Source: a virus
Virus record (IMG/VR): IMGVR_UViG_3300026512_000008
Location: 1-64,000 of that record
Reading direction: 5' to 3' (one strand)
Length of the DNA: 64,000 nucleotides
This document shows, piece by piece, positions 27,620 to 50,178 of the stretch. Made by a program: the position numbers and the translations under genes. The notes beneath the pieces are model-generated. The model worked only from the letters and a program-made list of their open reading frames with translations. It searched no databases and was not told the origin of the DNA. Numbering within the stretch: position 1 is the first letter of the stretch; each line of letters opens with the position of its first letter.

Positions 27620-28285
27620 ATGAAAAACGAAATAGAAAAACTAATTAAAAAACAAAGTACAACAATGTCTAAATATCAAATTGACAATTTTGTTATTAAT
27701 GATAAAATGACATCATATAAAATACTAAAACAAATATTATTAGAACTAGGTACTAGATATTCTGGTTTAGAAGATTTAGAGTTAGATATTGAAAGTGCTG
27801 ATTTAGAATTAGAACTTCTGGAGTCTGAATTAACAGATATAACAAAAGATTCCATTGAATATAAACTAAAAAAAATAGAAATTAAAAAACAATTAAAAGC
27901 TATTAAAACATTGTCTAAAACATTATCTAATTATATGTATGAAATTAAAATTTTAGAAGATAATTTTGCTAAAATTAAGGAAATAGGAGACCCGGAAACA
28001 ATTCTTAATGATGAAAAGGGTGAGGAAATTTATTGGGTTAATAAATTCGTAAAAGAAGCACAAATAGATATTATGACTTCAGGAAGAATAGGTAAAGGCA
28101 TTTTAGATGCTATTCTTATGTTAGACGAAAAATTACAAAAAACAATTATAGATAATGCTATATCACAAGCAACTTTATCAAACTTATATTTGAGTAGTGT
28201 TGAAAATGAAGTTATCTCTAATATAAAAGAAATAAACAAACCGTCTCTTATGTTAAATCAGTTGGTAGAAGAAACTAAAGTATAA
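27620..28285 (+). CDS. Coiled-coil protein of the tail region, unknown
   Basis: This is a 221-residue, highly helical protein with a heptad-rich centre (residues 45-115, for example LELDIESADLELELLESEL). I do not recognise the family. The C-terminal part includes WVNKFVKEAQIDI and GRIGKGILDAILML. It is cotranscribed after the assembly-like gene, and its stop overlaps the start of the permease gene at 28285 (TAATG). An exact TATAAATA at 27572, inside the previous gene, could start transcription here. It may be a structural linker or chaperone. Confidence 0.5.
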   Translation: MKNEIEKLIKKQSTTMSKYQIDNFVINDKMTSYKILKQILLELGTRYSGLEDLELDIESADLELELLESELTDITKDSIEYKLKKIEIKKQLKAIKTLSKTLSNYMYEIKILEDNFAKIKEIGDPETILNDEKGEEIYWVNKFVKEAQIDIMTSGRIGKGILDAILMLDEKLQKTIIDNAISQATLSNLYLSSVENEVISNIKEINKPSLMLNQLVEETKV

Positions 28286-29298
28286 TGTCACTCATACTGT
28301 TAAATCAGTCTTATGTATTATACATTTTTTTCATAATGGTTATAAGTGCTGTTATAAAACATAATGGTGTTTTTGATGATTTGTTTTATATTATATCTAA
28401 ATACATAAAAAGTAAGAGAGTTGTTATTTTTTTAATAAGTTTAGTTTCTGGAGTATTGCCCGTTCCTGGTAGAGTTACTGTTACAGCAGGAATTTTAGAT
28501 ACAATAGCTCCTTCAGATAAAAAGAAACGGGCTAAGTTTGGAATTATAGATTATCTTAGTACACATCATTATTATTTGTGGTCGCCTTTAGAAAAAACGA
28601 TAATAATACCAATGGCTATGTTAGGATTGAGTTATGCTGGTGTTATTACTTTACTTGCACCCTTGCTTATTTTTAGTTTATTATTAAGTTTTTGGTATAT
28701 ATTTGTTACTACAAAAGAAGAAGACATTGTACTAAATATTAAAAAAACATCAAATAAAGGTATATATAACATAGTACCATTTATTTTAGGTATTATAACA
28801 ATAGCATTTGGAGTAAATCCTGCACTTGTTTTTAGTATTATTTCAATAACATATTATATTTGGTTTCCAACACCAATAAATGTTATTTGGAAAAATATAA
28901 ATGTTAAGTTATTGATTTTTGTATTTTGTATTTTAGTTTTCGGAAATTATGTACACTTACATACTGACGAAATTAATACTTTTATTTCTACATTACCATA
29001 TTCTATAAACACATTAATAGGGTTTATATCTGTGAGCATATTATCTTTTGGTAGTTCATTTTTGTTAGGAAGTAGTGCAAGATTTACCGGGTTAGTTTCT
29101 ATATTATCACTTGCATTTGGTGTACAATATTTTGTGTACTTTTTTGCATTAGAATTTAGTGCTTATTTATTATCGCCCGCTCACAAATGTGTTATTATAG
29201 GTAATATGTATTTTGGTACAAAAATTAAGGATTACTACAAAGTTTTAATATTTTGGAGTTTTGGATTAATATTATTAGGGTTAATAACTTTAATTTAA
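28285..29298 (+). CDS. Inner-membrane permease, DUF401-like
   Basis: This 337-residue protein is composed almost entirely of hydrophobic helices (about nine or ten membrane segments). It resembles the DUF401 group of the ion-transporter superfamily. An early helix is followed by the motif SLVSGVLPVPGRVTVTAG, with conserved P-x-P-G-R. Later there are ISTHHYYLWSPLEKT-like (here LSTHHYYLWSPLEKT) and FSAYLLSPAHKC re-entrant-like motifs. The substrate is unknown. Translation is coupled to the phage gene upstream, and a TonB-dependent receptor gene follows after 15 bases. The pair would give uptake across both membranes. Such genes are unexpected in a phage structural operon and are probably host-derived. 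Confidence 0.6.
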   Translation: MSLILLNQSYVLYIFFIMVISAVIKHNGVFDDLFYIISKYIKSKRVVIFLISLVSGVLPVPGRVTVTAGILDTIAPSDKKKRAKFGIIDYLSTHHYYLWSPLEKTIIIPMAMLGLSYAGVITLLAPLLIFSLLLSFWYIFVTTKEEDIVLNIKKTSNKGIYNIVPFILGIITIAFGVNPALVFSIISITYYIWFPTPINVIWKNINVKLLIFVFCILVFGNYVHLHTDEINTFISTLPYSINTLIGFISVSILSFGSSFLLGSSARFTGLVSILSLAFGVQYFVYFFALEFSAYLLSPAHKCVIIGNMYFGTKIKDYYKVLIFWSFGLILLGLITLI

Positions 29299-29313
29299 AA
29301 AAAAAGGAATAAA

Positions 29314-31044
29314 ATGAAAATTTTAATGTTGATGTTGCTATCAATATCTATTTATGCAAAAGATTACACGCTACCTCTTTTAAACATAACTTCTTCTGCT
29401 TTTAAGAGAAACACATTATTTTATAATAAGTTAAAACAAACAGATAATAATGAACATGCTGAAAGAGTTGTCCAAATACAAGAAACAGCAGTTGGTTTTA
29501 GACAACCAATTTTTAGAGGTTTGCAAGGCGATCAAATACATTTAACAGTCGATAGTATGGATTTTACTAACTCTATGTTTAGATCTGGACCTAATCAGTA
29601 TTATTCCTTTATTCCAAATGAGTTTGTTTATCAAATCACACTAAACAAGGATATAGATGATTTAGGTAATAACTCATTTGGTGGCACAATAAACAGAGAT
29701 TTAGGGTTTTTGAGTACAAATACTAACATAATCCGGGTAGAGAACTACATTTCTGGTGGTAAAGTGTTTAGTTCTTACCAAAATAAAGATTTAAAAATAG
29801 GTGCTTTATACAAAAAGATTAATTATATTGAAACACCGAATGGTAAACAAGACCATACTAACTACAATCAAAAAGGGATTTATATTGAGAAAAATAAGTA
29901 TAAATTAATATATACTAGAAGTGATAATATTAACCGTACAGATAAGTTTTTAAAAGGCAAACCTAGAATTTATGATAAACAATATTACCTTGGTATATTT
30001 AAAGATTTTAAAGTAAACTATGATTATACAATTAAAGTTTCTTACCAAAACTTTTATGAAAATATTAATAACCCTAAAAAAGATAACAAAAGACTTGATA
30101 AATCTAATACAAATGTGTATCAACTTCATAATGAGTATTACATTTCTGATAATTTAATTTTAACAACTAAACATAAATGGGAAAATATAGACTATAAAAA
30201 ATATGGTACTACTGAAAAGAATTATAATGTATATGATAATAGTGTTGGATTAAATTATTTTCAAAATTACGCAGACTTTAAATATAGTGTTAGTGTTAAT
30301 GCTGATTATGCTACAATAGCAAATAAAGATTTTTGGAATGTTGGTGCTGGTGTAAAAGCAGAATATAATAATGTTTATATAAGTGTATCACAAGGTTACA
30401 AATATCCAACTATTTACAATCTTAATGAAGCAATTTCCGATAGTTTATATGAAATACCAAATCCAGATCTTAAAAAAGAAACAAGTATTAAAACAGAACT
30501 AGGTTATTCAAATTCAATACAATATTTAGAATATCGTAGTACTGTTTTTTACAATCGTTTAAGTAATATGATTGTAAGAGAGAAAACAAACCAATTATCA
30601 CCAGACGGTTCCAATATGTTTAAAATAACAAATGCAAATAATGGAAACATATATGGTGTTAATACAAACTTGGTTTTTGATTATAATAATTTTATTATAG
30701 ACTTTTTTGCAGAGTACACATACGGCAAAACAAATGTTGATTATATTTCAAAATTAACTCCGTTTCGCACAGATACAAGAATAGAATATAAATCGTTTAG
30801 TATAACACATAAATATGCAAAAAAATCTAACACTTTATCTAATGCGGATAAAAAAGACATTCGTATTAAAAATCATAATTATGGATATAACCAATTTGAT
30901 GTAAATTACATTTACTGTTTTGAAAATAAAAATACCTTAAAATTTTCTGTTAAAAATATTTTCAATAATACAGGTCGTGTTATTGGTAGTAGTAATGATT
31001 TTGAAAAAAGATATTTATATTTAACTCTAACAATTAAACTTTAA
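29314..31044 (+). CDS. TonB-dependent outer-membrane receptor
   Basis: This is a 576-residue outer-membrane receptor. It has a signal peptide (MKILMLMLLSISIYAKD, cleavage after YA) and a possible TonB box (YTLPLLNITSSA). The plug domain has FRGLQGDQIHLTVDSMDF, FRSGPNQYY and GGTIN. A beta-barrel follows with alternating strands and receptor phrases (PTIYNLNEA, NPDLKKETSIKTELGY, NIFNNTGRV), ending KRYLYLTLTIKL. It is shorter than many receptors, but plug and barrel look complete. It would move iron chelates, cobalamin or another metal complex, using host TonB energy. Carried by a phage it could feed the host, act as a decoy, or alter entry of other phages. Confidence 0.88.
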   Translation: MKILMLMLLSISIYAKDYTLPLLNITSSAFKRNTLFYNKLKQTDNNEHAERVVQIQETAVGFRQPIFRGLQGDQIHLTVDSMDFTNSMFRSGPNQYYSFIPNEFVYQITLNKDIDDLGNNSFGGTINRDLGFLSTNTNIIRVENYISGGKVFSSYQNKDLKIGALYKKINYIETPNGKQDHTNYNQKGIYIEKNKYKLIYTRSDNINRTDKFLKGKPRIYDKQYYLGIFKDFKVNYDYTIKVSYQNFYENINNPKKDNKRLDKSNTNVYQLHNEYYISDNLILTTKHKWENIDYKKYGTTEKNYNVYDNSVGLNYFQNYADFKYSVSVNADYATIANKDFWNVGAGVKAEYNNVYISVSQGYKYPTIYNLNEAISDSLYEIPNPDLKKETSIKTELGYSNSIQYLEYRSTVFYNRLSNMIVREKTNQLSPDGSNMFKITNANNGNIYGVNTNLVFDYNNFIIDFFAEYTYGKTNVDYISKLTPFRTDTRIEYKSFSITHKYAKKSNTLSNADKKDIRIKNHNYGYNQFDVNYIYCFENKNTLKFSVKNIFNNTGRVIGSSNDFEKRYLYLTLTIKL

Positions 31045-31067
31045 TCAAATTTTAAGTATTAATTTGT

Positions 31068-31073
31068 TATAAT
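31068..31073 (+). promoter_or_regulatory. Candidate sigma70-type -10
   Basis: TTTGTTATAATATATCAT lies after the receptor stop codon and before the micro-ORF and radical SAM genes. It resembles the motifs before the homing endonuclease (9980) and in the end repeats (63626). It may give this operon early or host-type expression. TATAAT matches by chance are common in such AT-rich DNA. Confidence 0.4.
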
Positions 31074-31102
31074 ATATCATAAAAAGGATAATAAGGATAA
31101 TA

Positions 31103-31165
31103 ATGTACAAACAAATTACCTACAAATATAATCAAAAACTACAAACACTTGAAGAAAAATTTTGA
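31103..31165 (+). CDS. 20-codon micro-ORF upstream of the radical SAM gene
   Basis: An ATG with two upstream AAGGATAA ribosome-like sites opens a 20-codon frame (31103-31165). It starts MYKQITYKYNQ, with three Tyr residues, and ends in a Glu/Lys-rich segment. Its TGA overlaps the TTG start of the radical SAM gene. A short peptide right before a radical SAM enzyme is the arrangement of PqqA-PqqE, so it could be a modified peptide; it could equally just couple translation. It contains no Cys. No homology can be tested by eye. Confidence 0.35.
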   Translation: MYKQITYKYNQKLQTLEEKF

Positions 31166-32115
31166 AATTTATATCTTTAATATTATCAGAAGCTTGTAAT
31201 CTAAATTGTTCATATTGTTATATAGCAGATAAACAATCAAAAAAGAAAATATCATTTGATTTATTTGTTGAAGAATTTGAAAAAATTTATGATGAAACTG
31301 AAGATTATACATTTGATATTATGGGTGGTGAACCTTTATTACAAATGGGTTTAGTAAAACAATTTATAGAGTATGGTAATTTTAGACATTTTGACATAAA
31401 AATAATGACAAATGGTTTTTTACTTACTCCTGATATTGTTAATTATTTAAACGAAAATAAAGTTACAGTTTCAGTTTCATATGATGGTATGTGGCAATGT
31501 GATAGAGGTAAAGATTTTTCGAACAATTTAATAAAAATAATCAAATCTATAGATAACTTAAAAATACATTCAATGTGGAGTGGTAAATATTTTGGTCTTA
31601 CTGCAAACCACAAAATATTAGAAAAAATGTTTGGTGTTAATCCTAAAATTACTATGGTAAGAGATATAGGTACTTGGCATGAAGAAAATATCAAACAAGC
31701 AAAACAAGATATTACAGAATTAATGAATTATGCTATAGAATCTAATACAATTCCTGGGTTTTTTGAACACTTTTTAACTCATATATTAAGATATCATAAG
31801 AAAGGATATATACCTAAAGATTGTGGTGCTGGTAATACTATATTAGCATTTCATAATAATAAATTTTTTAGTTGTTATAGATATTTTGATAAAGAAGATA
31901 TCTTTAGTGGTATTGGTACAGAAGAAATACAAGAATTTTGTAAAACTTGTGAAGTAAACCAATATTGTGAAAAAGGTTGTTTAATTCAACAATTAGAAAA
32001 CCAAAAACCTATAGAACACTTATGTGAGTTATACAAACACATATATTGGCTTATTATAGAAAATATAAATACACTAAATAAAGAAAAAGTATTTGAAATT
32101 ACAAATTATGTTTAA
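31162..32115 (+). CDS. Radical SAM/SPASM peptide-maturase-like enzyme 1
   Basis: This is a 317-residue radical SAM enzyme. The 4Fe-4S cluster that cleaves S-adenosylmethionine is held by C12, C16 and C19 (CNLNCSYC). GGEP follows at about residue 55. The C-terminal part has a SPASM-type set of cysteines (DCGAGN, FFSCYRYF, FCKTC, YCEKGC, HLC) that would hold two auxiliary clusters, as in enzymes that modify ribosomal peptides. The start is TTG, because in-frame codons upstream give no ATG before a stop. It overlaps the micro-ORF stop, suggesting translational coupling. It is likely to act with the second SPASM enzyme at 32403 on the Cys-rich protein at 33526. Confidence 0.88.
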   Translation: MKFISLILSEACNLNCSYCYIADKQSKKKISFDLFVEEFEKIYDETEDYTFDIMGGEPLLQMGLVKQFIEYGNFRHFDIKIMTNGFLLTPDIVNYLNENKVTVSVSYDGMWQCDRGKDFSNNLIKIIKSIDNLKIHSMWSGKYFGLTANHKILEKMFGVNPKITMVRDIGTWHEENIKQAKQDITELMNYAIESNTIPGFFEHFLTHILRYHKKGYIPKDCGAGNTILAFHNNKFFSCYRYFDKEDIFSGIGTEEIQEFCKTCEVNQYCEKGCLIQQLENQKPIEHLCELYKHIYWLIIENINTLNKEKVFEITNYV

Positions 32116-32124
32116 AGGACAATA

Positions 32125-32403
32125 ATGATTAATAAAACACTAAATAACAATTCTGCTAATAGAGTAGATAAAGTAGAAGGATTTTTATCCAAATCAGAAA
32201 AAAATAGCACATTATTTCGTGCTTCACAAAAAATAATGGAAGCAGGAGTAGAAATGATGAAAATATCATCAAAAATGAGCGCAATTTTATTTGAAATGGG
32301 TGATCAGATGCTTAAAGAAATTGATTTAAGAGATGATAAAATGACTGATGATGATATACAAAATATAATAGATGATATTTTGTCTATTAAAAAAGGTTTA
32401 TAA
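32125..32403 (+). CDS. Small helical protein between two radical SAM genes
   Basis: This is a 92-residue protein of unknown function. Residues 20-70 form an amphipathic helix rich in Met, Lys and Ser, and the C-terminus is acidic (DDKMTDDDIQNIIDDIL). No Cys, so it is not an obvious Fe-S or thioether substrate. It lies 9 bases after the first radical SAM gene and its stop overlaps the start of the second (TAATG). It may be a partner or adaptor that presents the substrate. No family recognised. Confidence 0.5.
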   Translation: MINKTLNNNSANRVDKVEGFLSKSEKNSTLFRASQKIMEAGVEMMKISSKMSAILFEMGDQMLKEIDLRDDKMTDDDIQNIIDDILSIKKGL

Positions 32404-33524
32404 TGAGTCAAAAAATACAAGCAAAAGGTTCATTCAATTTTGAAATTACAACTGTTACATCATGTGATATGGCTTGTACATATTGTTTTGAGGGGGAAAA
32501 AGCAGTAGATAATAAGAAAGTAAATCAACGAATACCACAATATATTAAAAAAATTAAAGAGACTTTGGAATCAGATTGGTTTAAAAAAGATTATGAATTT
32601 TTATCTCTTGATTTTTGGGGTGGCGAACCCACTTTAAATAATTATGTTATGACTGTTTTAATTAACGAATTTAAAGATTATGATAATGTTGATTTTCATT
32701 TATATACAAATGCTTTTAATGAAGTAACTATGCGTAAATTTATTTCTTCTATAGATCCTAGTAAATTAAGAATTCAAGTTTCATATGATGGTAGAGTTAT
32801 TAATGATAAATTTAGAATAGATCATGCAGGAAAATCGACATCAGAAAAAGTATTAAGTACTTTTGATTATTTAAGTACTGTTGGGTTAAAACATTTATCA
32901 ATGAAAAGTACATTACCTCTTTCCGAGTGTCATCATATGGTAGAAGTATGGAAAGAGTTCCGTGAGTTAAATAAAAAATATAATAGTAATAATGTACTTA
33001 TTAGATACGCACCAACACTGGATTATCATACAAAATTACAAGATCCAAATACATACTTACCATATTTTGAACAAGCAATTAAAGAAATTAGTGCTATGGA
33101 AATTGATTTTTTTAGAGAAAAAGGTTATTTTCTTTTTACTTGGTACAGAGGGTCTGATAAAAGATTTACTTGTACTGCAGGTAAAAATATGACTATTCTT
33201 GACACAGACGGGAATTTTTATCCTTGTCATGGAGCATTATATTTAGAAGACAAAGAAGAAGCACATAAACTTTTATCACTTAATGATAATATAAATAACT
33301 TAAATAGAGATAAGTTTATTAATATGATTAGTAAAACAAACGAAATATGTGAAAGTTGTGTAGCAACTACTTGTTTTGTTTGTCCAACATCATCTTATGC
33401 AGCATCACAAAAAGAATCTTATGAAGATAGATGGTTAGATAATCAAGTTCACGGATTATGTGGATATTATCAAGCATTTGGTAAGGTTGATAGAGCATTC
33501 TCAAAACTTTTAGGAGGTAACTAA
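32403..33524 (+). CDS. Radical SAM/SPASM peptide-maturase-like enzyme 2
   Basis: This is a 373-residue radical SAM enzyme with C21, C25 and C28 (CDMACTYC) for the SAM cluster and WGGEPTLN near residue 76. A full SPASM domain begins at about residue 259. It contains TCTAGKNMTILDTDGNFYPCHG, with the characteristic C-x-A-G and Y-P-C-H, followed by ICESC, TCFVCP and GLCGYY. This architecture is that of anaerobic sulfatase-maturase and sactipeptide/ranthipeptide maturases, which act on Cys or neighbouring residues of proteins. The next gene encodes a protein with twelve cysteines, starting just after the stop codon, so it is the obvious substrate candidate. Confidence 0.92.
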   Translation: MSQKIQAKGSFNFEITTVTSCDMACTYCFEGEKAVDNKKVNQRIPQYIKKIKETLESDWFKKDYEFLSLDFWGGEPTLNNYVMTVLINEFKDYDNVDFHLYTNAFNEVTMRKFISSIDPSKLRIQVSYDGRVINDKFRIDHAGKSTSEKVLSTFDYLSTVGLKHLSMKSTLPLSECHHMVEVWKEFRELNKKYNSNNVLIRYAPTLDYHTKLQDPNTYLPYFEQAIKEISAMEIDFFREKGYFLFTWYRGSDKRFTCTAGKNMTILDTDGNFYPCHGALYLEDKEEAHKLLSLNDNINNLNRDKFINMISKTNEICESCVATTCFVCPTSSYAASQKESYEDRWLDNQVHGLCGYYQAFGKVDRAFSKLLGGN

Positions 33525-33525
33525 T

Positions 33526-34020
33526 ATGGGATCAGGAACATCCACTTCAGACACAGGATATTGCACATCTGATAATTGTCATAATAACTGTTATTCAAAT
33601 AGTTGTACAAATCACAGAGCAAGTTGCTCATCAAATAGAGTAGTAACATTATCAAATGTTAGTGTAGGACATACAATTAAAGCATCTGATTTAGAATTAT
33701 TAAGATCAAATACTATAAACGAAATTAATAGATGGAATCAAAATCACAAATATAATTTTAGTAAAACAGCAACATCGGGAATTAGTTCAGGTGCAATTAT
33801 TAAAGCAAATGATTTTAATAAACTAATTAACGATTTAAGTGGTACAGGTCACGGTTCTACTAGTAATGTGTCTGCAGGTTCTATTATATATGCTAGTAAA
33901 TTAGCATCTAATATGTTATCATTATATGACTCACTAAGAACAGATTGTGTATGTAACTCTGATTGTGGTAATCATAGTGTGTGTAGTTGTCACGGTGATT
34001 GTGGTTGTAATTATAGTTAA
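33526..34020 (+). CDS. Cys-rich protein, candidate radical SAM substrate
   Basis: This is a 164-residue protein with twelve cysteines, all in its two ends. N-terminal residues 10-36 have five Cys with His, Asn and Ser between. C-terminal residues 140-164 have seven in a near-symmetric CxC-x3-C-x5-CxC-x3-CxC pattern. Between them are three repeats of the form (V/I)S-x-G-x-x-I-(K/Y)-A-x-x-(L/F) (SVGHTIKASDL, SSGAIIKANDF, SAGSIIYASKL), a module of the type seen in phage tail proteins. A perfect AGGAGG drives translation. It is best read as a virion or secreted protein whose Cys ends are modified (thioether or Fe-S) by the two SPASM enzymes upstream. The gene pairing is seen; the modification is inference. 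Confidence 0.75.
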   Translation: MGSGTSTSDTGYCTSDNCHNNCYSNSCTNHRASCSSNRVVTLSNVSVGHTIKASDLELLRSNTINEINRWNQNHKYNFSKTATSGISSGAIIKANDFNKLINDLSGTGHGSTSNVSAGSIIYASKLASNMLSLYDSLRTDCVCNSDCGNHSVCSCHGDCGCNYS

Positions 34021-34049
34021 AAATAAAATTAAAAATAAAGGAAAAGTAA

Positions 34050-34658
34050 ATGATATTTGAATTAGCAATAGTAGAGGATAGAGGAACACATTATTTAGTA
34101 ACAGGTGTAACTAAAAGTTCATTTGACGGATTAGCAAATAGAGAAGACAAAGTATTAAAATTGTCATATAATAGTTATCAAAAATGTAGTGACGGATTAG
34201 CAGAAGGTAAAACTGTTACTATTAATAAAGAATTAACTACAGATGAAGTTCTGCCAGGTGATGTAAATGTTTCTGATGAAGCAATAAGTGAATTAGAAAC
34301 ATATAAAAAAGTAGCAATGCAGAAAATTAATAAAAAAATGACATATAATACTGCAACAATTTCTGCTTTAGAAATATTGTCTTTTACAGTTATAAACTCT
34401 GAATTAGCATCATTAGGGTACTTTATTACAGAAAAAAATAGAGAAGATAAGTATATAGAAATTATAGAAGCAGAAGACGAAGAATTAATTGAAAAATTAG
34501 AAGAGTATTTAATTTTATTAGATTTAGTTCAAAACTCTCTTAAATTTAGTAATATGTGTAAAAAGTATAATAATCAAATTTTATTAGCAGAAGATCAAAA
34601 CGCAGTAGATGATATTTTGTCAAACTTTTATAAAGAGTATGACGCATATAGTTCGTAA
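34050..34658 (+). CDS. Unknown protein closing the RiPP-like operon
   Basis: This is a 202-residue acidic protein that I do not recognise. Residues 1-75 are beta-rich (MIFELAIVEDRGTHYLVTGV), and residues 80-202 are helical with a charged segment (IIEAEDEELIEKLEEYLIL). It has one Cys near residue 47 and one near 171. It starts 29 bases after the Cys-rich gene with AAAGGA. The position suggests a partner, carrier or virion-attachment factor for that protein. No transporter or protease gene is seen in this operon. Confidence 0.5.
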   Translation: MIFELAIVEDRGTHYLVTGVTKSSFDGLANREDKVLKLSYNSYQKCSDGLAEGKTVTINKELTTDEVLPGDVNVSDEAISELETYKKVAMQKINKKMTYNTATISALEILSFTVINSELASLGYFITEKNREDKYIEIIEAEDEELIEKLEEYLILLDLVQNSLKFSNMCKKYNNQILLAEDQNAVDDILSNFYKEYDAYSS

Positions 34659-36155: not shown

Positions 36156-37043
36156 ATGTCAAGAATAGTGAATCTTAAAAACTATGATTTAGTAATAACA
36201 TATAGTTGGCACACAAATGACCAAGGAATATGTGGTCATACTTTTGAAGTTATTGAGTATTTTTGGATACTTAAAGATTATTTTAATGTTTGTATTCTTA
36301 TGGCAGAAAATACTACTATTGACGATTTTATTGTTGCTATTAAATCAAAATATAATTTTACAGAAGATGAAATAAAAATAATAACAAATAAAATAGAGTT
36401 TCATTACAAACCTCTTCTTTTAATGTGTAATAATATATTATTTACTGATGGCGCTTATGAACGAATTAAATTAAGTAATATTTATTACAAAAAAATGTTT
36501 TTATTTAGTTGTGGATATATGCCTATAACAAGTGACAAAAATATATATATACTTCAAGATCATAGAATTTATAAAAAAGCAAAAGTAAACTCTATAGAAT
36601 ATGTTAAAAAGATATTGTTTTCTAGGTTTAAAGAAGTTAATACACATAAAAACCAAACTTTAATATACGCTACCAAAAATTGTAGAAAATTAAGTGTTAA
36701 ATACTACCAAAACTTATTAAACAATACTAATGATAATTATATAGTTATAACAAATGAAGAAAATAAACTTACATTTACATCACCTAGAATAACACAAATT
36801 ATGATGCCTGTAAAGGATATTTTTGAACACTTTAATAAATATCTCTATACACCTATAGACAGACAATTTGATTGTAGTCCAAGGTTTATAGCAGAGTGTA
36901 AATATTATAATATAGAAGTTCAGTACGACATAACTTATACAGATAAAGGATTAGAAGCAAGGCAGTCTGACCTCGAAGATTTATCAAAAATATCATTAAC
37001 AAAAAATGATAATATAATAAAAATTATTAGTGATATTATATGA
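36156..37043 (+). CDS. Glycosyltransferase-like protein (paralogue 3)
   Basis: This is a 295-residue protein closely related to the one at 37651 and more distantly to the two upstream. Key phrases are GICGHTFEVIEYFWIL (N-terminal helix), KKMFLFSCG, then LIYATKNCRKL at the start of a second lobe. After these come PVKDIFEHFNKYLYTP and FDCSPRFIAECKYYNIEV near the C-terminus. The second lobe with a strand-YAT-K/Q-x-C-R start and the SPRFIAE motif supports GT-B glycosyltransferase. It overlaps the radical SAM gene at 37040 by ATGA. Sugar and acceptor unknown. Confidence 0.55.
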   Translation: MSRIVNLKNYDLVITYSWHTNDQGICGHTFEVIEYFWILKDYFNVCILMAENTTIDDFIVAIKSKYNFTEDEIKIITNKIEFHYKPLLLMCNNILFTDGAYERIKLSNIYYKKMFLFSCGYMPITSDKNIYILQDHRIYKKAKVNSIEYVKKILFSRFKEVNTHKNQTLIYATKNCRKLSVKYYQNLLNNTNDNYIVITNEENKLTFTSPRITQIMMPVKDIFEHFNKYLYTPIDRQFDCSPRFIAECKYYNIEVQYDITYTDKGLEARQSDLEDLSKISLTKNDNIIKIISDII

Positions 37044-37657
37044 CACATACTTTATTTGTAACTTATAAATGTAATTGGAATTGTTCATATTGTATAACAG
37101 ACACTCATAATCAAAAAGAAGTTAGTTTTCAAAAAATATTAAATCAACTTGTTAATATAGAAGATAACTCTATAATATATTTAAGTGGAGGAGAACCAGG
37201 GTTATTATCATATAAAAAATTAGAGACTATTTTTAATATTGTAAAATCAAAACATTGTACACTAAATGTATTTACCAATGGCAGTATTTTTAAATACAAA
37301 ACATTAATAAAATATATAGATTATATTTCGTATCATTGTTCTGAAAACTTGGATAATTTTGTAGAAAAAGTTGATATAAAAAATGTAACATATAATATAG
37401 TAGTGTCTAACACAAATAAAGACAATTTAGATTCATTTTTAGAAATAAACAAACATATAAAATTTTTAGTTGCGGGTGCGGATGATAAAGATTGTTTAAG
37501 TAAAATAGACGGAATTAAAATTTGGATGAAATATAAAAATATAATTCACGAATATAGTAAAGAAAAATTAATGTGTCATTATAAATTTTACAAAAATAAT
37601 ATAAAACAAAATAATACAATGCAAGAGTATAGTTTTAAGGAGCAATATAAATGTTAA
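37040..37657 (+). CDS. Short radical SAM protein
   Basis: This is a 205-residue radical SAM enzyme with C11, C15 and C18 (CNWNCSYC) and LSGGEPGLL at about residue 50. It is shorter than its relatives in the island and has no clear auxiliary-cluster domain; only scattered Cys remain at the C-terminus. It resembles small activase/organising-type radical SAM proteins such as QueE-size enzymes, but no specific function can be read. It lies between two glycosyltransferase-like paralogues and overlaps both (4 and 7 bases), so it probably works with them. Confidence 0.8.
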   Translation: MTHTLFVTYKCNWNCSYCITDTHNQKEVSFQKILNQLVNIEDNSIIYLSGGEPGLLSYKKLETIFNIVKSKHCTLNVFTNGSIFKYKTLIKYIDYISYHCSENLDNFVEKVDIKNVTYNIVVSNTNKDNLDSFLEINKHIKFLVAGADDKDCLSKIDGIKIWMKYKNIIHEYSKEKLMCHYKFYKNNIKQNNTMQEYSFKEQYKC

Positions 37658-38514
37658 ATTTACTAAAATACGATTTAATAGTATCTATTTCTACAGAACT
37701 AAATGGTGTTTGTGGGCACACTTATGAAATCATAGATTATTTTTATGTATTATCTAATCATTTTAAATGCTGTATTCTTCTTCCTGAAAAAGATATATTT
37801 GATAAATTTGATAGTATTATTAGATTAAAATACAATTTTACAGAAAATGAAATATCATATATACTAAAACACACTTATTCTAGAAGTTTTCATACTAAAG
37901 TTTTAGGTAATAATATATTACTTACAGATGGTGTTATAGATTATAGTATAAACAAACATTATGTTGTTAAAAAAATGTTACTGTTCAGTTGTCAAACTAA
38001 AATACCATATAAAAATAATAATATAATATACTTAGCGGATAATAGAATATATAACAATGGTGTGCATTATGTTAAAAAAATATTATTTGATAAAATTAAA
38101 AAACCTAAATTGCAAAGCAATAATATGTTAATATATGCTACTCAAGATTGTAGAAATCTTGATGAAAATTATTATGATATTATAGAACAAAAATACCCAA
38201 ATTTTAATTTTACATTATTGACAAATATAGAAAATAAACCAAAAACTCGTTCTAAATTTATGTGGTTAGATATGCCTGTTGATAATATATTTGAACACTT
38301 TAGTACTTATCTTTATACTAAAACTAGTACTCGATTTGATTGTAGTCCTAGATTTATAGCTGAGTGTAAATACTTTAGTAAAAAAGTTATATATGATATT
38401 GATTATGAAGATTTAGGGTTGAAAACAAGAATAGATGATATAGAAAATAATTTTAAATCCTTATACTTAACTGATAATGATGAAATTATAAATATTATAA
38501 AAGAACATATATGA
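37651..38514 (+). CDS. Glycosyltransferase-like protein (paralogue 4)
   Basis: This is a 287-residue near relative of the protein at 36156: GVCGHTYEIIDYFYVL, KKMLLFSCQ, LIYATQDCRNL, PVDNIFEHFSTYLYT and FDCSPRFIAECKYFSKKV align along the whole length. The pair at 36156/37651 flanks the short radical SAM gene, as if a glycosyltransferase was duplicated around it. Both lack a signal peptide or membrane segment and should be cytoplasmic. It overlaps the GT2 gene by ATGA. Confidence 0.55.
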   Translation: MLNLLKYDLIVSISTELNGVCGHTYEIIDYFYVLSNHFKCCILLPEKDIFDKFDSIIRLKYNFTENEISYILKHTYSRSFHTKVLGNNILLTDGVIDYSINKHYVVKKMLLFSCQTKIPYKNNNIIYLADNRIYNNGVHYVKKILFDKIKKPKLQSNNMLIYATQDCRNLDENYYDIIEQKYPNFNFTLLTNIENKPKTRSKFMWLDMPVDNIFEHFSTYLYTKTSTRFDCSPRFIAECKYFSKKVIYDIDYEDLGLKTRIDDIENNFKSLYLTDNDEIINIIKEHI

Positions 38515-39086
38515 GTGATGTAAAACTAAGTATTTTAATTTTAACACATAATAGACCAGAACTATTTAAAAGATGTATTAATTCAGTACTTAAAAATATT
38601 CCTGATAATGTTGAAATTATTGTAAATAATGATAGTAATGATATTACAGAAATAGATGGTGCTACATATTTTTATGAAAAACATGATGATTTATCGGATA
38701 CCTATAAAATGTTATTTGATAAAGCAAAAGGAGAATATATTTATTTTCTTGAAGATGATGATTACATAACTAAAAATTTCTTCAAACATTTAGATTTTTC
38801 ATATGATATTATGTATATGAATTTTATTAGATTTGACGAAATAATACAAGATTATGATTTTATAATGGAAGAGGAGAATAATGAATTTCAACTGTCTCAA
38901 ATACTATTTAAAAAAAATTTAGTATCAGAATTTCCAAAAGGTAATTTATTACATAATGATTGGTTTTTATTTCAACATATAAAATATAAAACAGATAATA
39001 TTAAATTAATTAAAAATAAAATGTTTGTTCAAACAACACATGGTAATGATAATATAAGTATGACTAAAAATGAAAGGTTTAAATAA
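38511..39086 (+). CDS. Family 2 glycosyltransferase (GT-A)
   Basis: This is a 191-residue glycosyltransferase. The start KLSILILTHNRPELFKRC is the classic nucleotide-sugar-binding strand and helix of GT2, followed by EIIVNNDSNDIT and YIYFLEDDDYIT, whose acidic DDD would bind the metal and donor sugar. It is shorter than usual GT2 enzymes (about 250) but the catalytic half is complete. No membrane segments. The stop overlaps the next radical SAM gene (TAATG). Likely acceptor: a phage protein or host surface glycan. Confidence 0.85.
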   Translation: MSDVKLSILILTHNRPELFKRCINSVLKNIPDNVEIIVNNDSNDITEIDGATYFYEKHDDLSDTYKMLFDKAKGEYIYFLEDDDYITKNFFKHLDFSYDIMYMNFIRFDEIIQDYDFIMEEENNEFQLSQILFKKNLVSEFPKGNLLHNDWFLFQHIKYKTDNIKLIKNKMFVQTTHGNDNISMTKNERFK

Positions 39087-40024
39087 TGATAGTACAACAA
39101 GGAAAGAATCATATGATTCAAAGATTATATGTTCATTGGGATGTAAGTACACAATGTAATTTTGCGTGTTCATACTGCTATGCTATAAAACAATATGGGG
39201 ATCAATGGGGTAAAATACTGGATTTTAATAAACAAAAGTTAATTATAAAATCAATCAGTCTTAGTACATTACCAGTGTTTTTAGGATTTTTGGGTGGAGA
39301 ACCAACCATACACCCTAGATTTTATGAACTATACGAATTAACAGTTCAAGCAATATCAAAACATAAAAAAGGTAGATTATATATAACTACTAATGGGTCA
39401 AAAAATTTAGATTTTTTTAAAAAGATTAAATATTACAATAATGTGTACTTTTTATGGAGTTTCCATCCGGAATATGTTCATAATTACACTAATTCTAAGT
39501 CAAAGTATGGTATTATACTAGATAATATACGATTAATGCAAAAGCGTGGATTTAAAAATAAAGTAAATATTATGTTATCTAATGAAGAAAAATATTGGGA
39601 CGACCTTATTAATTTCTCAAATGAAGTAGAAAAAATTGAAGGTGTTGAATTACACGCTCACTTTTTATATACAGAAAGTAAAGATCAGTCACAAATATTT
39701 CCTTACACAGATGTGTTTTATGAAAAATTTAAAAAGTTTAAAAATTATAATAGAGAGTTTATTTATGATGGTAAAGAATATAATGATTATGAAATGTTTA
39801 CTCAAGGACTAAATCAATTCAAAGGGTGGAAATGTTGGAATAATAATTGGGAAATCACATATGATGGTAAAATAGAACGATTTTGTTTTAATGAAAAAAC
39901 TGATTTACTAAAAGATATTATGTTTTTTAAAAATTTAAAAGAAGTAACTCCAAAACCTTGTCCATATAATGTTTGTGAGTGTGATGGGTTACTTAAAATA
40001 TATAAAGAAAAACCTTATGACTAA
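39086..40024 (+). CDS. Radical SAM enzyme, GGEPTxHP subfamily
   Basis: This is a 312-residue radical SAM enzyme with C24, C28 and C31 (CNFACSYC) and FLGGEPTIHP. The C-terminus has GWKCWNNNW, IERFCFNEK and CPYNVCECDG. This C-terminal pattern (GW-x-C, then G-x-I-x-x-x-C, then CP-x3-C-x-C) recurs in the genes at 40017, 42508, 43434 and 47907, defining a family with an auxiliary cluster of reduced SPASM type. A second possible start at 39113 has a better AAGGAAAG site and would still keep all motifs. Substrate unknown. Confidence 0.85.
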   Translation: MIVQQGKNHMIQRLYVHWDVSTQCNFACSYCYAIKQYGDQWGKILDFNKQKLIIKSISLSTLPVFLGFLGGEPTIHPRFYELYELTVQAISKHKKGRLYITTNGSKNLDFFKKIKYYNNVYFLWSFHPEYVHNYTNSKSKYGIILDNIRLMQKRGFKNKVNIMLSNEEKYWDDLINFSNEVEKIEGVELHAHFLYTESKDQSQIFPYTDVFYEKFKKFKNYNREFIYDGKEYNDYEMFTQGLNQFKGWKCWNNNWEITYDGKIERFCFNEKTDLLKDIMFFKNLKEVTPKPCPYNVCECDGLLKIYKEKPYD

Positions 40025-40895
40025 AATTAAAAATATAAAAGAAATAGGTACTTATTCTGATATATTATTGTTTTCTTGGGAACTAACAGATTATTGTAAT
40101 TATAATTGTTCATATTGTTATGCTAAGGATTTTAACAAACAATCATTTACTTCGGAAAATAAATCTTGGAAAATGGTTTTAGCTAGACTTAAAACATTAG
40201 ATACAAAATTTAAAATAGAATTACTTGGTGGAGAACCAACATTACATCCTGAAATATTTGCAATTATAAAAAAATTAAATTGTATTAAAAATTGTATAGA
40301 TATACAATTAATAACAAATTTAAGTAAATCTATACAATTTTTTAAAAAATTAGATATATTAGAAAATAACAAATTAACAATAAATGCTTCATATCATTAT
40401 GAATATGATGGATTTTACGAAAAGTGTTTAAAGTTTAACAATTTTAAATATATTAAATTTAGAGTTACTGTTAATGTAGGGTCTGACGAATCTTATTGGA
40501 ATAAAATATTAAAAATATTAAATAATAAAAATATTCACACTACCATTAATATTTTATATAGTACACCTGATAATAATATAAAATATAATAAAAATATATA
40601 TACATACTTTAGTGATTATTTACATTATGATAATTTAGTACCTGTTACATATATAGATAATAAAGAATCTAAAATTGAAATATATGATGTGTTTCAAGAT
40701 AGTGCGAATTTTACAGAGTTTAAATGTACGCCTTTAGAATATACAATCACAATGTATGGTGAAATATTAAATGCATGTACAAGAGTAAAAACTTCACTAA
40801 AATTAACTAAAGAAAATATGATAAAAAGTGTAATTTGTCCTTTAAACAAATGTAAATGTAATGATTATATTGAATTTAAAAAGGTAAGAATATGA
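40017..40895 (+). CDS. Radical SAM enzyme, GGEPTxHP subfamily
   Basis: This is a 292-residue enzyme with C27, C31 and C34 (CNYNCSYC), LLGGEPTLHPEIF and a C-terminal ICPLNKCKCND. I place the start at the ATG at 40017. The longer frame from 39969 runs deep into the previous gene, and the shorter form aligns from its first residues with the relative at 47907. Eight bases overlap the gene before and four the gene after. It is closest to the protein at 47907 by N-terminal layout (F-x-W-x-x-x-x-x-C-N). Confidence 0.85.
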   Translation: MTKIKNIKEIGTYSDILLFSWELTDYCNYNCSYCYAKDFNKQSFTSENKSWKMVLARLKTLDTKFKIELLGGEPTLHPEIFAIIKKLNCIKNCIDIQLITNLSKSIQFFKKLDILENNKLTINASYHYEYDGFYEKCLKFNNFKYIKFRVTVNVGSDESYWNKILKILNNKNIHTTINILYSTPDNNIKYNKNIYTYFSDYLHYDNLVPVTYIDNKESKIEIYDVFQDSANFTEFKCTPLEYTITMYGEILNACTRVKTSLKLTKENMIKSVICPLNKCKCNDYIEFKKVRI

Positions 40896-41650
40896 TGGTA
40901 GAATGGGAAATTACTTTAAAATGTAATTATAGTTGTAATTATTGTGGATTATTAAGACCTATAAAAGAACAAACAAATGAAAAAATTTTATATGATTTTA
41001 TAAAAAAACTTAATGAAAAATATAGTACAACGGAAATATTTTTATTTGGCGGTGAACCATTTTTACACCCTAAAATCGAGTTTATCATTAAAACTTTACA
41101 ATCGTTTAATCAACCATTTATGATACAGTCAAATTTATCAAATACTTCAACTAAAGTAATACAAAATTTAAATGTAGAACCTTTTAAGTTATGTATAAGT
41201 GTTCATGTGTCTCAAACATCTTTAACGGACATTTGTAAAAATATAATAAAAGTAAAACCACAAGAAGCTCACTTAATGTACACAGAAACTTCAGGTAAAG
41301 TTGAAAAATATTATAAACGCATAAATATTATTAAAGGATATACAAAATTAATTCTTACACCTGTAAGTAATCTTGCTTGTGAAGGATATGATGATGTGTT
41401 AATAAAGTATAATAAAATAAAAGAAAATTATGTGTATGATCAAAACAAAGTTACATACAATGGTGTAAAAATGTTAAGAAGTGATATTTGGATGATGCAA
41501 AATAAATTAGAATATTCATTAACAAAAGGTAAAACCTGTCAATACTTAAATAAATATATTTTATTTACACCGGAATTAAAACCTATGAATTGTTGTTATC
41601 GTAAAAGTACAAATGGTATATGCGACGAACAAAATTGTTTTTTTATGTAA
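40892..41650 (+). CDS. Radical SAM enzyme
   Basis: This is a 252-residue enzyme with C11, C15 and C18 (CNYSCNYC) near the N-terminus and LFGGEPFLHPKIE. The end carries GKTCQYLNKYILFTP, MNCCYRKS and a final CDEQNCFFM, suggesting an auxiliary cluster that differs from the CP-x3-C-x-C type of its neighbours. It overlaps the previous gene by ATGA and closes this tightly packed run, which extends from 34667. A late promoter match lies in the gap after it. Confidence 0.83.
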   Translation: MMVEWEITLKCNYSCNYCGLLRPIKEQTNEKILYDFIKKLNEKYSTTEIFLFGGEPFLHPKIEFIIKTLQSFNQPFMIQSNLSNTSTKVIQNLNVEPFKLCISVHVSQTSLTDICKNIIKVKPQEAHLMYTETSGKVEKYYKRINIIKGYTKLILTPVSNLACEGYDDVLIKYNKIKENYVYDQNKVTYNGVKMLRSDIWMMQNKLEYSLTKGKTCQYLNKYILFTPELKPMNCCYRKSTNGICDEQNCFFM

Positions 41651-41662
41651 ATTGTAATATTA

Positions 41663-41670
41663 TATAAATA
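41663..41670 (+). promoter_or_regulatory. T4-type late promoter (TATAAATA)
   Basis: An exact octamer lies in the 37-base gap between the radical SAM gene and the second U32-like gene, followed by AAAGGA. Confidence 0.5.
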
Positions 41671-41687
41671 TAATATAAAGGATATAT

Positions 41688-42521
41688 ATGTATAATGTAG
41701 CAGGTGCATTTAGTAAATTTAAAGTATTATCATTGTTTATACTTAAAAATCATATCAAAAATATTACAGTTTATGATGGTATTAATATGTGTAAATGGAA
41801 CGGTGGTAGAATTAACACAGAAAACTTTTATAAAGATTCACAAATAGATTTTTATTACAAACGAAATATTAATATAGCTTTAACATTTAGTAATCATATT
41901 ATAGATATTAATGATAAAGTAGGTAATGAATTACTTCAAAAGTTTCATAAAAATGGTAATAAAATTATATTAGTAAACGAAGAACTTCGTAAACATATTC
42001 GTAAAAACTTTCCTAAATATAAGTTAGTACATAGTATTACAGACACAGGTAAATTATCTGTAATATATAAAGATTGTATAAATTATTATAAAAATTTAGA
42101 AACAAAATACGATTATATTGTACCCAAAATGGAACATGCAATGTATTTAGATAATAATTTAAATTTAAGTAAGTACGAAATTATGTTAAATGATTCGTGT
42201 GTATTTAATTGTTCACTTTATAATGAACATTTTAAAAAAATTAATGAACAAAATTTACTAGATAACCCACAAAAAGAATTAAGTAAAAACGAACGATATT
42301 GTATAGAAGAATGCTGGATTAAAAACTTTAATCCTGATATTGGAGATACTAAATATTATGTAGAACAAGGCGATATGAAAGGTATGGATTTAACATATAA
42401 ACAAATACAAATACTTATAAATAAAGGCATTAAACACTTTAAAATATCAGGAAGAGAAATGACAGATAAAATGTTTGCTACGCAATTAGAAGTATTATTG
42501 GAATTTAATGAATATTTATGA
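41688..42521 (+). CDS. Second peptidase U32-like Fe-S protein
   Basis: This is a 277-residue protein with the same plan as the U32-like protein at 22281. EIMLNDSCVFNCSLYNEHFKK (key: N, C-x3-C, H) fits the U32 cysteine motif, a CIEEC follows, and HFKISGREMTD near the C-terminus corresponds to the K-I-E-G-R phrase. It is shorter at both ends. Characterised U32 relatives (UbiU/V, RlhA, TrhP) support oxygen-independent hydroxylation with a 4Fe-4S cluster. Its neighbours are radical SAM enzymes, and the next gene starts within its last 14 bases. Confidence 0.6.
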   Translation: MYNVAGAFSKFKVLSLFILKNHIKNITVYDGINMCKWNGGRINTENFYKDSQIDFYYKRNINIALTFSNHIIDINDKVGNELLQKFHKNGNKIILVNEELRKHIRKNFPKYKLVHSITDTGKLSVIYKDCINYYKNLETKYDYIVPKMEHAMYLDNNLNLSKYEIMLNDSCVFNCSLYNEHFKKINEQNLLDNPQKELSKNERYCIEECWIKNFNPDIGDTKYYVEQGDMKGMDLTYKQIQILINKGIKHFKISGREMTDKMFATQLEVLLEFNEYL

Positions 42522-43431
42522 TATTGACAATTTACCATTAGCAAATGTTAATACTGTAAATATTAAGGATATTACTACAGATATAATTGAATATCAAGGA
42601 TTTAAGGAATTTAAAGCAGTAAATGTTGATTGGACTATTAATAACGAATGTCAATTAAATTGTAAATATTGTTGTGCTAAAAAAGATATGTTTGTTACTA
42701 AAACAAATTCTAATTATGAAAAAGTTATTAAAAAACTTCAATTAATTTTAGTACCTTTTACTATATGCCTTCTTGGCGGCGAACCTACTTTACATCCGGA
42801 TATATTTAAAATTATTGAGGAATTAACTAAACTTAAATATTGTAAAGGTGTTAATCTTATTACAAATTTACATAAACCATTAGAATTCTGGAAAGAGTTA
42901 GCTGGTTACAATTTTAACAAATTTAGTATTGATGCTTCATTACACCCAGAATATTATAATGATAAATTCTTAGAAAAAGTGAATTACTTAAAAAGTACAG
43001 AAACGGAAATAAATGTGTTACTTAATGTATTTCCTGAAAAAAAATATTATGATAAAATGAATCATGCTATTAATAATATAGATGATTTGACTATTGTAAA
43101 CATTTTTGAAACGGAAGATTATAAACCTAAAATAACTGATGAATTTTTAGAAATGTTTTTTGAAAAAGATGTGATGTTTAATTATCATATAAATAATGTA
43201 AATAACAGTTACAAATACACTGAGTTACAAAAATATAATTTAGTAAATTTTAAAGGTTGGAAATGTACCGCTCAAGATTTAATTATTACTCAGGAAGGTG
43301 ATATTAAAAATGCTTGCACTAACAAAAAGGTAATAATGTACACACATAAACATAGGGATGAAATGATAATTTGTCCATTAGACAGTTGTCCGTGTGATAC
43401 ATTTATGCACTTTTACAAATATAAAGGATAA
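42508..43431 (+). CDS. Radical SAM enzyme, GGEPTxHP subfamily (duplicate a)
   Basis: This is a 307-residue enzyme with C48, C52 and C55 (CQLNCKYC), LLGGEPTLHPDIF, GWKCTAQDLIITQEGDI, a following ACTNKK, and ICPLDSCPCDTF. It is a tandem duplicate of the next gene; the two share long stretches of identical DNA at the start of the barrel and in the C-terminal cluster region but differ in the middle. The N-terminal 40 residues are unlike those of other radical SAM families and may bind a partner. Confidence 0.87.
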   Translation: MNIYDIDNLPLANVNTVNIKDITTDIIEYQGFKEFKAVNVDWTINNECQLNCKYCCAKKDMFVTKTNSNYEKVIKKLQLILVPFTICLLGGEPTLHPDIFKIIEELTKLKYCKGVNLITNLHKPLEFWKELAGYNFNKFSIDASLHPEYYNDKFLEKVNYLKSTETEINVLLNVFPEKKYYDKMNHAINNIDDLTIVNIFETEDYKPKITDEFLEMFFEKDVMFNYHINNVNNSYKYTELQKYNLVNFKGWKCTAQDLIITQEGDIKNACTNKKVIMYTHKHRDEMIICPLDSCPCDTFMHFYKYKG

Positions 43432-44353
43432 AAATGAATTTAAAATACCCAGTTGAAGACCCTAGAAATTATGTTAAACAGTTTCATCATAAAGTTCAAT
43501 ACGATATTCATCCAAAAGATGTTGATATGAATAATGTAAATTTTCAAGGATATAATGAATATAAAGGTGTTTCTATAAATTGGACTATTAATAACGAATG
43601 TCAATATGATTGTGTTTATTGTTATGCTAAAAGAGATATGATAGTGAAGCGTGCTAATTGTGATTATAAATCAGTAATTAAAAAATTAAAATTGATAGCT
43701 GTTCCTTTTGATATTTGTTTAGTAGGTGGTGAACCTACTTTACATCCGGATATATTTGAAATTATTGAAGAATTGGCAAAATTAAAACATTGTAATGATA
43801 TAGCTTTAACAACAAACTTATATGGTACTCAAGAATTTTGGAAAAAGTTTGACGATTTAGACCATAAAGGTAAATTACTTATCAATGTATCATTACATAT
43901 ACAATATTATAATGATAATTTTTTAAAAAATATTGATGTGTTAAAATCATATAAAAACACAGGTTTTGAGTGTACTTTAAATGTGTTTGCTGAAAAGAAA
44001 TACTACCAAAAAATGGAACACGCTATTAAACATATCGAAAACCTATATGTTGTTAGTATGTATGAAACTCCTGATTTTACTCCTAATATAAATGACGATT
44101 TTATTAAACAATTTTCCGAAAAAGAAATAGGGTTTAAAATGATTGTAGACGGAAAACCTCAATATTATCCGTTTTCTATGATGCAAAAATATGAGTTGAA
44201 TAAATTTAAAGGTTGGAAATGTACCGCTCAAGATTTAATTATTACTCAGGAAGGTGATATTAAAAATATGTGTACAGATAAAAAAATACTATTATACAGA
44301 GAAAAAGATAGGGATGAAATGATAATTTGTCCATTAGACAGTTGTCCGTGTGA
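43249..44353 (+). repeat. Recently duplicated or converted DNA in two radical SAM genes
   Basis: Identical segments occur at 43249-43311 and 44205-44267 (63 bases) and at 43352-43397 and 44308-44353 (46 bases). A shorter one, 25 bases, is shared at 42631-42655 and 43581-43605. Sequence between these blocks has diverged. Identity includes third codon positions, so gene conversion or recent duplication is likely. Confidence 0.9.
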
Positions 44354-48785: not shown

Positions 48786-48796
48786 AAGGAGTATAA

Positions 48797-49543: not shown

Positions 49544-49566
49544 AATATTTTTAATAAAGGAAGTTA

Positions 49567-50169: not shown

Positions 50170-50178
50170 AGGATAACT

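Follow-up and report, generated by a model that had tools for sequence, protein, structure and literature searches.

Two radical SAM/SPASM enzymes encoded beside a Cys-rich tail-fibre-like phage protein: a likely cassette for virion-protein maturation

Following these analyses of a 64,000-nucleotide stretch of viral DNA (the window), we conclude that the phage very probably modifies its own Cys-rich tail-fibre-like protein with radical SAM (rSAM)/SPASM enzymes encoded in the same cassette. This is an inference, with no biochemical or mass-spectrometric evidence behind it, and under the same reservation we regard the reading as a whole, a cassette for the maturation of a virion protein, as likely.

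All features described here lie on the plus strand. The genes for rSAM A (31162..32115; 317 aa, TTG start), a small helical protein (32125..32403; 92 aa, with counterparts in 13 other cassettes), rSAM B (32403..33524; 373 aa) and the Cys-rich tail-fibre-like protein, which is the presumed substrate (33526..34020; 164 aa, 12 Cys), form a tight operon, and the gene that comes next, conserved 3' of the Cys-rich gene, encodes a 202-aa phrog_25260 protein (34050..34658). The Cys-rich gene has a Shine-Dalgarno sequence, AGGAGG, at 33512..33517, and an extended -10 promoter-like element, TGTTATAAT (31065..31073, with TATAAT at 31068-31073 within it), recurs in the nearest relative, L030, 68 bp 5' of the cassette. 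Compared with L030, the four cassette genes gave dN/dS values of 0.12, 0.26, 0.14 and 0.19, demonstrating that they are under purifying selection. A micro-ORF of 20 codons read from the sequence (31103..31165) was dropped as a part of the cassette and is probably without function, because no counterpart was seen in the L030 leader. Motifs of the T4-type late promoter, TATAAATA, were observed at 32064 and 33290 with the same offsets in L030; they lie inside coding sequence, where conserved codons may explain them, and were discounted as evidence. The elements listed by the initial annotation (the TATAAT, the micro-ORF, two rSAM genes, a small helical gene, a 164-residue protein and the AGGAGG) are all present. 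Its statement that there is no transporter or protease also held for the cassette, where neither an exporter nor a protease gene was found in the ORF list or by Pfam search. That the cassette is a RiPP operon, strictly defined, has not been established, since it showed no sign of a leader, a protease or an exporter.

The cysteine richness of the 164-aa protein is not due to chance. It is the sole ORF of the window of at least 100 aa with at least 10 Cys and at least three CxC motifs, such Cys-dense ORFs averaged 0 across 30 dinucleotide-block shuffles, and its Cys fraction is 7.3% versus a mean of 1.3%. Five cysteines (positions 13, 18, 22, 27 and 34) form an N-terminal cluster (33562..33627) and seven (141, 143, 147, 153, 155, 159 and 161) an invariant C-terminal cluster of CxC[N/H] type (33946..34008), the latter fitting CxC-x3-C-x5-CxC-x3-CxC exactly, so the five-plus-seven arrangement and near-symmetric pattern first proposed were confirmed in full. 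The predicted helical central module (33628..33945) carries three G-x-x-I-x-A repeats, GHTIKA, GAIIKA and GSIIYA; the earlier description of them as three G-x-x-I-K-A repeats is only partly right, the third having Y for K. Eight Cys and Met1 are the only residues invariant among 13 homologues (26-70% identical). No evident leader was seen in the protein, which has Cys at both ends. In the AlphaFold model pLDDT fell below 50 across the two Cys clusters, and fold comparison was uninformative, giving no significant match. A formylglycine-type motif was considered for the N-terminal C-x3-R (CTNHR, CSSNR) and rejected, there being no P or A at +2 and no conservation in L027 or L028.

The tail-fibre architecture comes from the homologues. 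Many of them terminate in Peptidase_S74, a self-cleaving tail-fibre chaperone, which starts directly after the Cys cluster; the domain was above cut-off in L018, L029 and L033, and the L018 homologue matches tail-fibre PHROGs. Pfam found no Peptidase_S74 in the window protein, which ends where the S74 of its homologues starts. S74-terminated fibres and spikes with the endosialidase-type chaperone are related in architecture but differ from the window protein in this respect, and ordinary S74 fibres are not known to have dedicated rSAM partners.

The pairing of rSAM B with the Cys-rich protein is strict when approached from the Cys-rich protein (the reverse direction) and strong when approached from rSAM B (the forward direction). 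Searching with the Cys-rich protein alone recovered 18 loci, with rSAM B directly upstream in all 18 and rSAM A in 17 of them. The proposal had been held open to refutation by homologues occurring commonly without an rSAM neighbour, and this check went in its favour. The reverse search needed an alignment, the single whole protein as query having matched nothing in the viral contigs or in the phage collection. Among 84,980 prokaryote species genomes no relatives were found. When the Cys clusters were left out, a profile of the central module matched solely Cys-rich rSAM partners in all the viral DNA fetched. In the forward direction, when viral contigs were queried with rSAM B, the Cys-rich protein adjoined in most matches. 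Over 33 contigs, 23 of 33 rSAM B genes had a Cys-rich ORF within the next 300 nt (25 when L071 and the TAG-recoded L040 are included), whereas none of the 99 other rSAM genes on the same contigs adjoined one. A B-like enzyme without the Cys-rich partner occurs in L036 and L037, scoring about 218 bits. The fecal record MT835472 (L014), with an rSAM/SCIFF pair, appears to be bacterial DNA and was kept as a positive control only.

Both enzymes start straight at the rSAM core. rSAM A matched Pfam PF04055 (E 1.2e-12) and phrog_1802 (E 6.5e-33), and rSAM B matched phrog_1802 (E 1.5e-30) with Fer4_12 also detected. Their initial assignment as SPASM enzymes stands, with TIGR04085 just passing on rSAM B (27.7 versus a cut-off of 27), with every rSAM and SPASM Cys invariant across 20 homologues of rSAM B, and with CxxxCxxC and the seven SPASM-type Cys unchanged or almost unchanged throughout both family alignments; the Pfam SPASM model was sub-threshold on rSAM B and gave no match on rSAM A. 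By sequence profiles, the nearest solved structure for both was 5wgg (E 4e-35 for rSAM A, 8e-26 for rSAM B), which is CteB, a thioether-forming maturase. The 92-aa helical protein was not recognised by Pfam or NCBIfam. We propose, by inference only, that it is an adaptor or recognition subunit, and perhaps it functionally replaces an RRE (PqqD-like) recognition domain. A division of labour with rSAM A acting on the N-terminal cluster and rSAM B on the C-terminal one was considered and rejected on the basis of two loci. L029 keeps the N-terminal Cys with no rSAM A on its 52.8-kb fragment, so rSAM A and that cluster are not strictly linked; L033, which lacks an N-terminal cluster, has two enzymes of mixed A/B character.

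Among known systems, CteB/SCIFF of Clostridia (PDB 5wgg/5why) is similar in placing a SPASM radical SAM enzyme beside a Cys-rich product, and most of the chromosomal enzymes closest to rSAM B come from Clostridia and are of SCIFF type, 54 of 80 lying beside a SCIFF peptide. However, the match starts about 100 residues into 5wgg, in line with the absence of that N-terminal region from rSAM A and rSAM B, and the phage substrates are tail-fibre-like proteins of 141-534 aa with CxC clusters, whereas the SCIFF peptide has about 46 aa. The phage-borne cassette also has two enzymes and a helical protein, and no SCIFF-like peptide was present among the ORFs surrounding it. The enzymes widely missed the NCBIfam cut-off of every named maturase, including the SCIFF maturase (TIGR03974; 46.8 and 38.7 bits versus 425). 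The PapB-family ranthipeptide maturase (NF047865) was the best NCBIfam model for both across most of their length (E 4e-24 on rSAM B), although well under its cut-off (72.5 and 85.4 bits versus 340). The substrate pattern of PapA is CX3D, which is not a feature of the phage Cys clusters. Second best was QhpD (TIGR03906; 68.8 and 48.2 versus 453). QhpD is the quinohemoprotein amine dehydrogenase maturase, which puts thioether links into a protein subunit and not a free peptide; no dehydrogenase subunit was seen in the cassette. RaS-RiPP systems likewise combine a SPASM-type enzyme with a dedicated ribosomal Cys-rich substrate, but the phage cassette has no protease for leader removal, no exporter and no evident leader.

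Related pairings, some of them unannotated, were found in Campylobacter phage CP220, Achromobacter phages JWF and 2-1 and Salmonella phage SPN3US, with similar ones in L045-L052 and, alongside SPN3US, in phiEaH2 and SPAsTU. Several of the partner proteins show an enrichment of CxC[N/D/H]. The CP220 pairing is gp136/gp140; gp136 matches rSAM B (26% over 98%), gp023 matches rSAM A (24% over 93%), and gp140, rich in Cys, contains a 21-bp repeat that encodes CDCNYCT. CP220 and CPt10 resemble the window in their components but differ in arrangement, the three CP220 genes being scattered with no operon. The CP220 paper (PMC2853527) notes the repeat of gp140 (CPT_0180) merely as a repeat and does not include this protein among the 11 gel bands it identified; we found no link of the rSAM genes to gp140 in its relevant passages. 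CP220 gp015, a relative of the 202-aa phrog_25260 protein, comes after the baseplate hub gene. In JWF and 2-1 the tail fibre is terminated by Hint, preceded in JWF gp028 by CNCDCNCNCSC, and in L046 and L049 the Cys tracts lie within large fibre-like proteins. The SPN3US-type partners, which in SPN3US are unannotated ORFs, are built like classical precursors: the N-terminal part has no Cys and the C-terminal part is rich in Cys, Ser and Gly. In Thermus phage phiMa, a tail protein with HxD repeats adjoins an rSAM gene.

We propose that rSAM A and rSAM B, probably aided by the helical protein, would modify the Cys clusters of the tail-fibre-like protein of their own operon. The modification would most likely consist of thioether (ranthipeptide/SCIFF-like) links, or of a related one working in the reducing cytoplasm, and the modified protein would enter the particle, where it would probably form a short trimeric tail-fibre or tip module. 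Removal of the self-cleaving S74 chaperone in relatives (or of the Hint domain in analogous phages) would leave the Cys cluster at the mature fibre end; in the window, the gene simply stops at the end of the cluster. The suggestion that SPASM enzymes modify the ends of the phage's own Cys-rich protein is supported, with catalysis on this substrate and the type of bond remaining inferred. Display on the virion is supported by the S74 chaperones and tail-fibre PHROG matches, with incorporation into the particle, the adaptor role and any benefit (stability or receptor binding) again inferred. Counting against the proposal are the missing S74 of the window protein, the missed NCBIfam cut-offs, the lack of CX3D motifs, the scattered CP220 genes, the absence of gp140 from the identified CP220 gel bands, the low pLDDT of the Cys clusters in the AlphaFold model and the exceptions L029, L036 and L037.

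Three other explanations were considered. The first is that the enzymes do modify the Cys-rich protein, with a product that functions apart from the virion, as a RiPP-like effector that is released or sits at the surface (in superinfection exclusion, host takeover or antibacterial action). In its favour, the pairing is equally strong, the SPN3US-type partners resemble classical precursors, and the functional models that match best are several NCBIfam peptide maturases. We nevertheless consider it unlikely given the S74 chaperones and tail-fibre PHROG matches, the fibre-borne Cys tracts of L046 and L049, the Hint-terminated fibre of JWF and 2-1, the lack of an exporter or protease and the position of the CP220 relative of the downstream gene. 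The second is that the Cys clusters are sites of metal binding (Zn or Fe-S) or of virion disulfides, and that the rSAM enzymes do not cross-link them but, for example, modify some other residue of that protein or are linked otherwise. Patterns rich in CxC/CxxC do also fit metal binding, no bond has been observed, and the phiMa protein suggests that rSAM action on fibre repeats may not need Cys. This too appears unlikely against the strictness of the partnership, the conservation of the Cys themselves and the closest enzyme relatives acting beside Cys-rich peptides. The third, that the rSAM genes are auxiliary metabolic genes boosting host metabolism and only incidentally near the Cys-rich gene, has in its favour that PMC2853527 reads the many rSAM genes of CP220/CPt10 in this way and that the window holds 11 rSAM genes, mostly in a sugar-gene-like region, but is very unlikely given the 0 of 99 count for other rSAM genes and the SPASM-type and maturase-like profile matches; it is contradicted for rSAM A and rSAM B because their pairing is obligate, and possibly holds for the rSAM genes at 37040-51198.

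A bolder form of the maturation reading, which we would as readily doubt as accept, is that unrelated phage lineages cross-link Cys-rich (in one case perhaps His/Asp-rich) tail-fibre tracts in the cytoplasm by dedicated radical SAM enzymes, giving a particle whose fibre ends, uncovered by the self-processing of S74 or Hint, are locked covalently without disulfides. This would be a class not described before, and no published description of such a system was found in the open-access literature searched.

The known targets of radical SAM/SPASM maturases are small peptide natural products and certain enzyme subunits. If our reading is true, dedicated maturases acting on phage tail fibres would put this enzyme type to a new use and would explain the abundance of rSAM genes in some phages, hitherto read as metabolic helpers. 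This old puzzle becomes testable in the cultured phages CP220, JWF and SPN3US, and the cassette points to unannotated genes in published genomes. Protein tips that are stable, cross-linked and genetically encoded might also be built with its enzymes and scaffolds. Some viruses, then, may chemically reinforce parts of their own particles with enzymes otherwise known from peptide natural products.

The cassette region (31065-34658) begins with a promoter-like motif, TGTTATAAT, followed by the radical SAM/SPASM enzyme rSAM A (317 aa), a 92-aa helical protein, a second such enzyme, rSAM B (373 aa), the Cys-rich protein (164 aa, 5+7 Cys, with AGGAGG in front) and a 202-aa protein. The initial annotation had proposed a RiPP-like operon here, and its description of these elements held and was accurate. 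The micro-ORF of 20 codons probably has no function, because no counterpart was seen in L030, the nearest relative of the window. Comparison of the window with L030 indicated purifying selection on all four main genes. Just upstream of the cassette (28285-31044), the phage genome carries a DUF401 membrane protein and a TonB-dependent-receptor-like barrel.

The window comes from a 67.5 kb IMG/VR viral record, and its source is a T4-like myovirus, on the basis of matches to portal and major head protein PHROGs and of a head protein that shares 58.6% identity with Vibrio phage Va1-type proteins and 48% with Campylobacter Firehammervirus proteins. Copies of the T4-type late promoter motif TATAAATA number 39 on the + strand of the window against 4 on the - strand, and they often sit 15-40 bp 5' of structural genes. 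Outside the cassette, at 37040-51198, nine more radical SAM genes are interspersed with transketolase-like, PIG-L deacetylase-like, epimerase-like and glycosyltransferase-like genes, which we read as another, unexplained rSAM-rich pathway.

The cassette is conserved, and its pairing of rSAM enzyme and Cys-rich protein is obligate. Alignment-based searches of viral contigs recovered 35 loci through rSAM B and 12 through rSAM A; in close loci A is followed by the helical ORF, then by B, then by the Cys-rich ORF, which starts no more than about 30 nt past the end of B. The reverse search, with Cys-rich proteins as the sole query, gave 18 loci, with B (18/18) and A (17/18) directly upstream. Across 33 contigs a Cys-rich ORF lay immediately 3' of rSAM B in 23 cases, versus none of the 99 other rSAM genes of the same contigs (Fisher p ~3e-18). 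Two additional pairings, in L071 and L040, were missed by the automatic criterion. This count carries an ascertainment caveat, as the Cys-rich protein was itself the route to some of the contigs, and members of the set had served to build the profiles. Two contigs, L036 and L037, have a B-like enzyme without a Cys-rich partner. The 202-aa gene comes next in nearly every cassette, and its relative in Campylobacter phage CP220, gp015, directly follows the baseplate hub gene. In the phage contig L040 (8528-13156), rSAM B and its neighbours are open only with TAG translated as an amino acid, and this translation reveals the cassette, including a Cys-rich C-terminus DCICYSDCNGYSVCWCYGNCNYY.

Both enzymes belong to phrog_1802. 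All CxxxCxxC and SPASM-type cysteines are invariant among rSAM B homologues, and among those of rSAM A the seven SPASM-type cysteines are invariant and the CxxxCxxC ones nearly so. Among solved structures, 5wgg is the closest to both enzymes; it is CteB, the thioether-forming maturase of SCIFF, a Clostridia ranthipeptide system. The best prokaryote-genome matches of B are mostly Clostridia enzymes, and a SCIFF peptide adjoins 54 of the best 80; no phage-type Cys-rich protein was seen beside these matches, and a search for the Cys-rich protein itself did not find it in prokaryote genomes. Scores against named maturases were far below the curated cut-offs, therefore neither enzyme is a member of those families.

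In the Cys-rich protein, only Met1 and eight cysteines are invariant among 13 homologues; among 24, five of the seven C-terminal cysteines are strictly invariant and the remaining two nearly so. A central-module profile built without either Cys cluster, searched against all fetched viral DNA, matched only Cys-rich rSAM partners, among them an 88-Cys protein in L045 and, marginally, CP220 gp140 (CPT_0180). In several homologues a Peptidase_S74 chaperone directly follows CGCNYS, above the Pfam cut-off in L018, L029 and L033, and the L018 homologue also matched tail-fibre PHROGs. The Peptidase_S74 module, which removes itself, is characteristic of tail fibres and spikes that are trimeric. The Cys-rich protein of the window ends exactly where these homologues enter this domain. 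L071 (5995-6797) has its S74 region divided between ORFs: the Cys-rich one stops after SDKRLKKDIIYM, and the remaining S74-like part forms another. The AlphaFold model places helices, at fair confidence, in the central repeats and gives the Cys ends no structure.

Analogous pairs occur in other phages. CP220 and its relatives have an enzyme resembling A, another resembling B, and gp140, whose CDCNYCT repeats hold 35 Cys. As a side observation, in Campylobacter phage CP21 (L060:17834-19271) two CxxC-repeat proteins, with 47 and 76 Cys, lie ~7-8 kb from the rSAM A relative; the CPt10 and CP220 versions are much shorter. In Achromobacter phages 2-1 (L015:3673-5115) and JWF (L167:1676-3127), a phrog_1802 rSAM lies one gene downstream of the gene for a tail-fibre protein in which the cluster CNCDCNC(NC)SC immediately precedes a self-processing Hint domain. 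Other Cys-repeat proteins adjoin rSAM genes in L045-L052, and some of them match Mtd_N or, weakly, C1q. The jumbo phages SPN3US (L012:3091-3898), phiEaH2 (L016:2117-2910) and SPAsTU (L086:3118-3920) have two tandem ORFs of ~127-157 aa and 20-21 Cys each directly upstream of an rSAM pair, Cys-free N-terminally and then with C-S/G-x-x-C repeats; their GenBank records do not annotate them as such. Several of these partners are enriched in the CxC[N/D/H] motif, which is absent from the SPN3US type. A further side observation concerns Thermus phage phiMa (L084:4943-7230), where a tail-like protein containing 53 HxD motifs is encoded just 5' of an rSAM that has HGD motifs at its own C-terminus; DNA modification has been suggested for this rSAM module (PMC11437467).

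The CP220 paper reported 11-12 rSAM genes, read as metabolic, and noted a 21-bp repeat in CPT_0180; no statement linking the repeat to the rSAM genes was found there. In the open-access literature searched, which left out subscription papers and preprints, nothing was found that describes an action of phage rSAM enzymes on virion proteins. On this basis we rate the cassette as new, being a variant, not yet described in that literature, of the known rSAM-maturase principle. There is also a substantial chance that it represents a new class of virion chemistry.

The operon structure, the pairing, the conserved cysteines, the intact catalytic motifs and the tail-fibre domains in relatives are established. 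By inference, the Cys-rich protein would be modified by A and B inside the host cytoplasm, an environment in which disulfides are unstable; the bonds would most likely be of thioether type, and the 92-aa protein would probably serve as an adaptor. The modified product would be a fibre or tip component, and the modification could possibly provide stability or receptor contact, which present evidence cannot separate. Radical SAM enzymes need low oxygen, and consequently microaerobic or anaerobic hosts would suit such a system.
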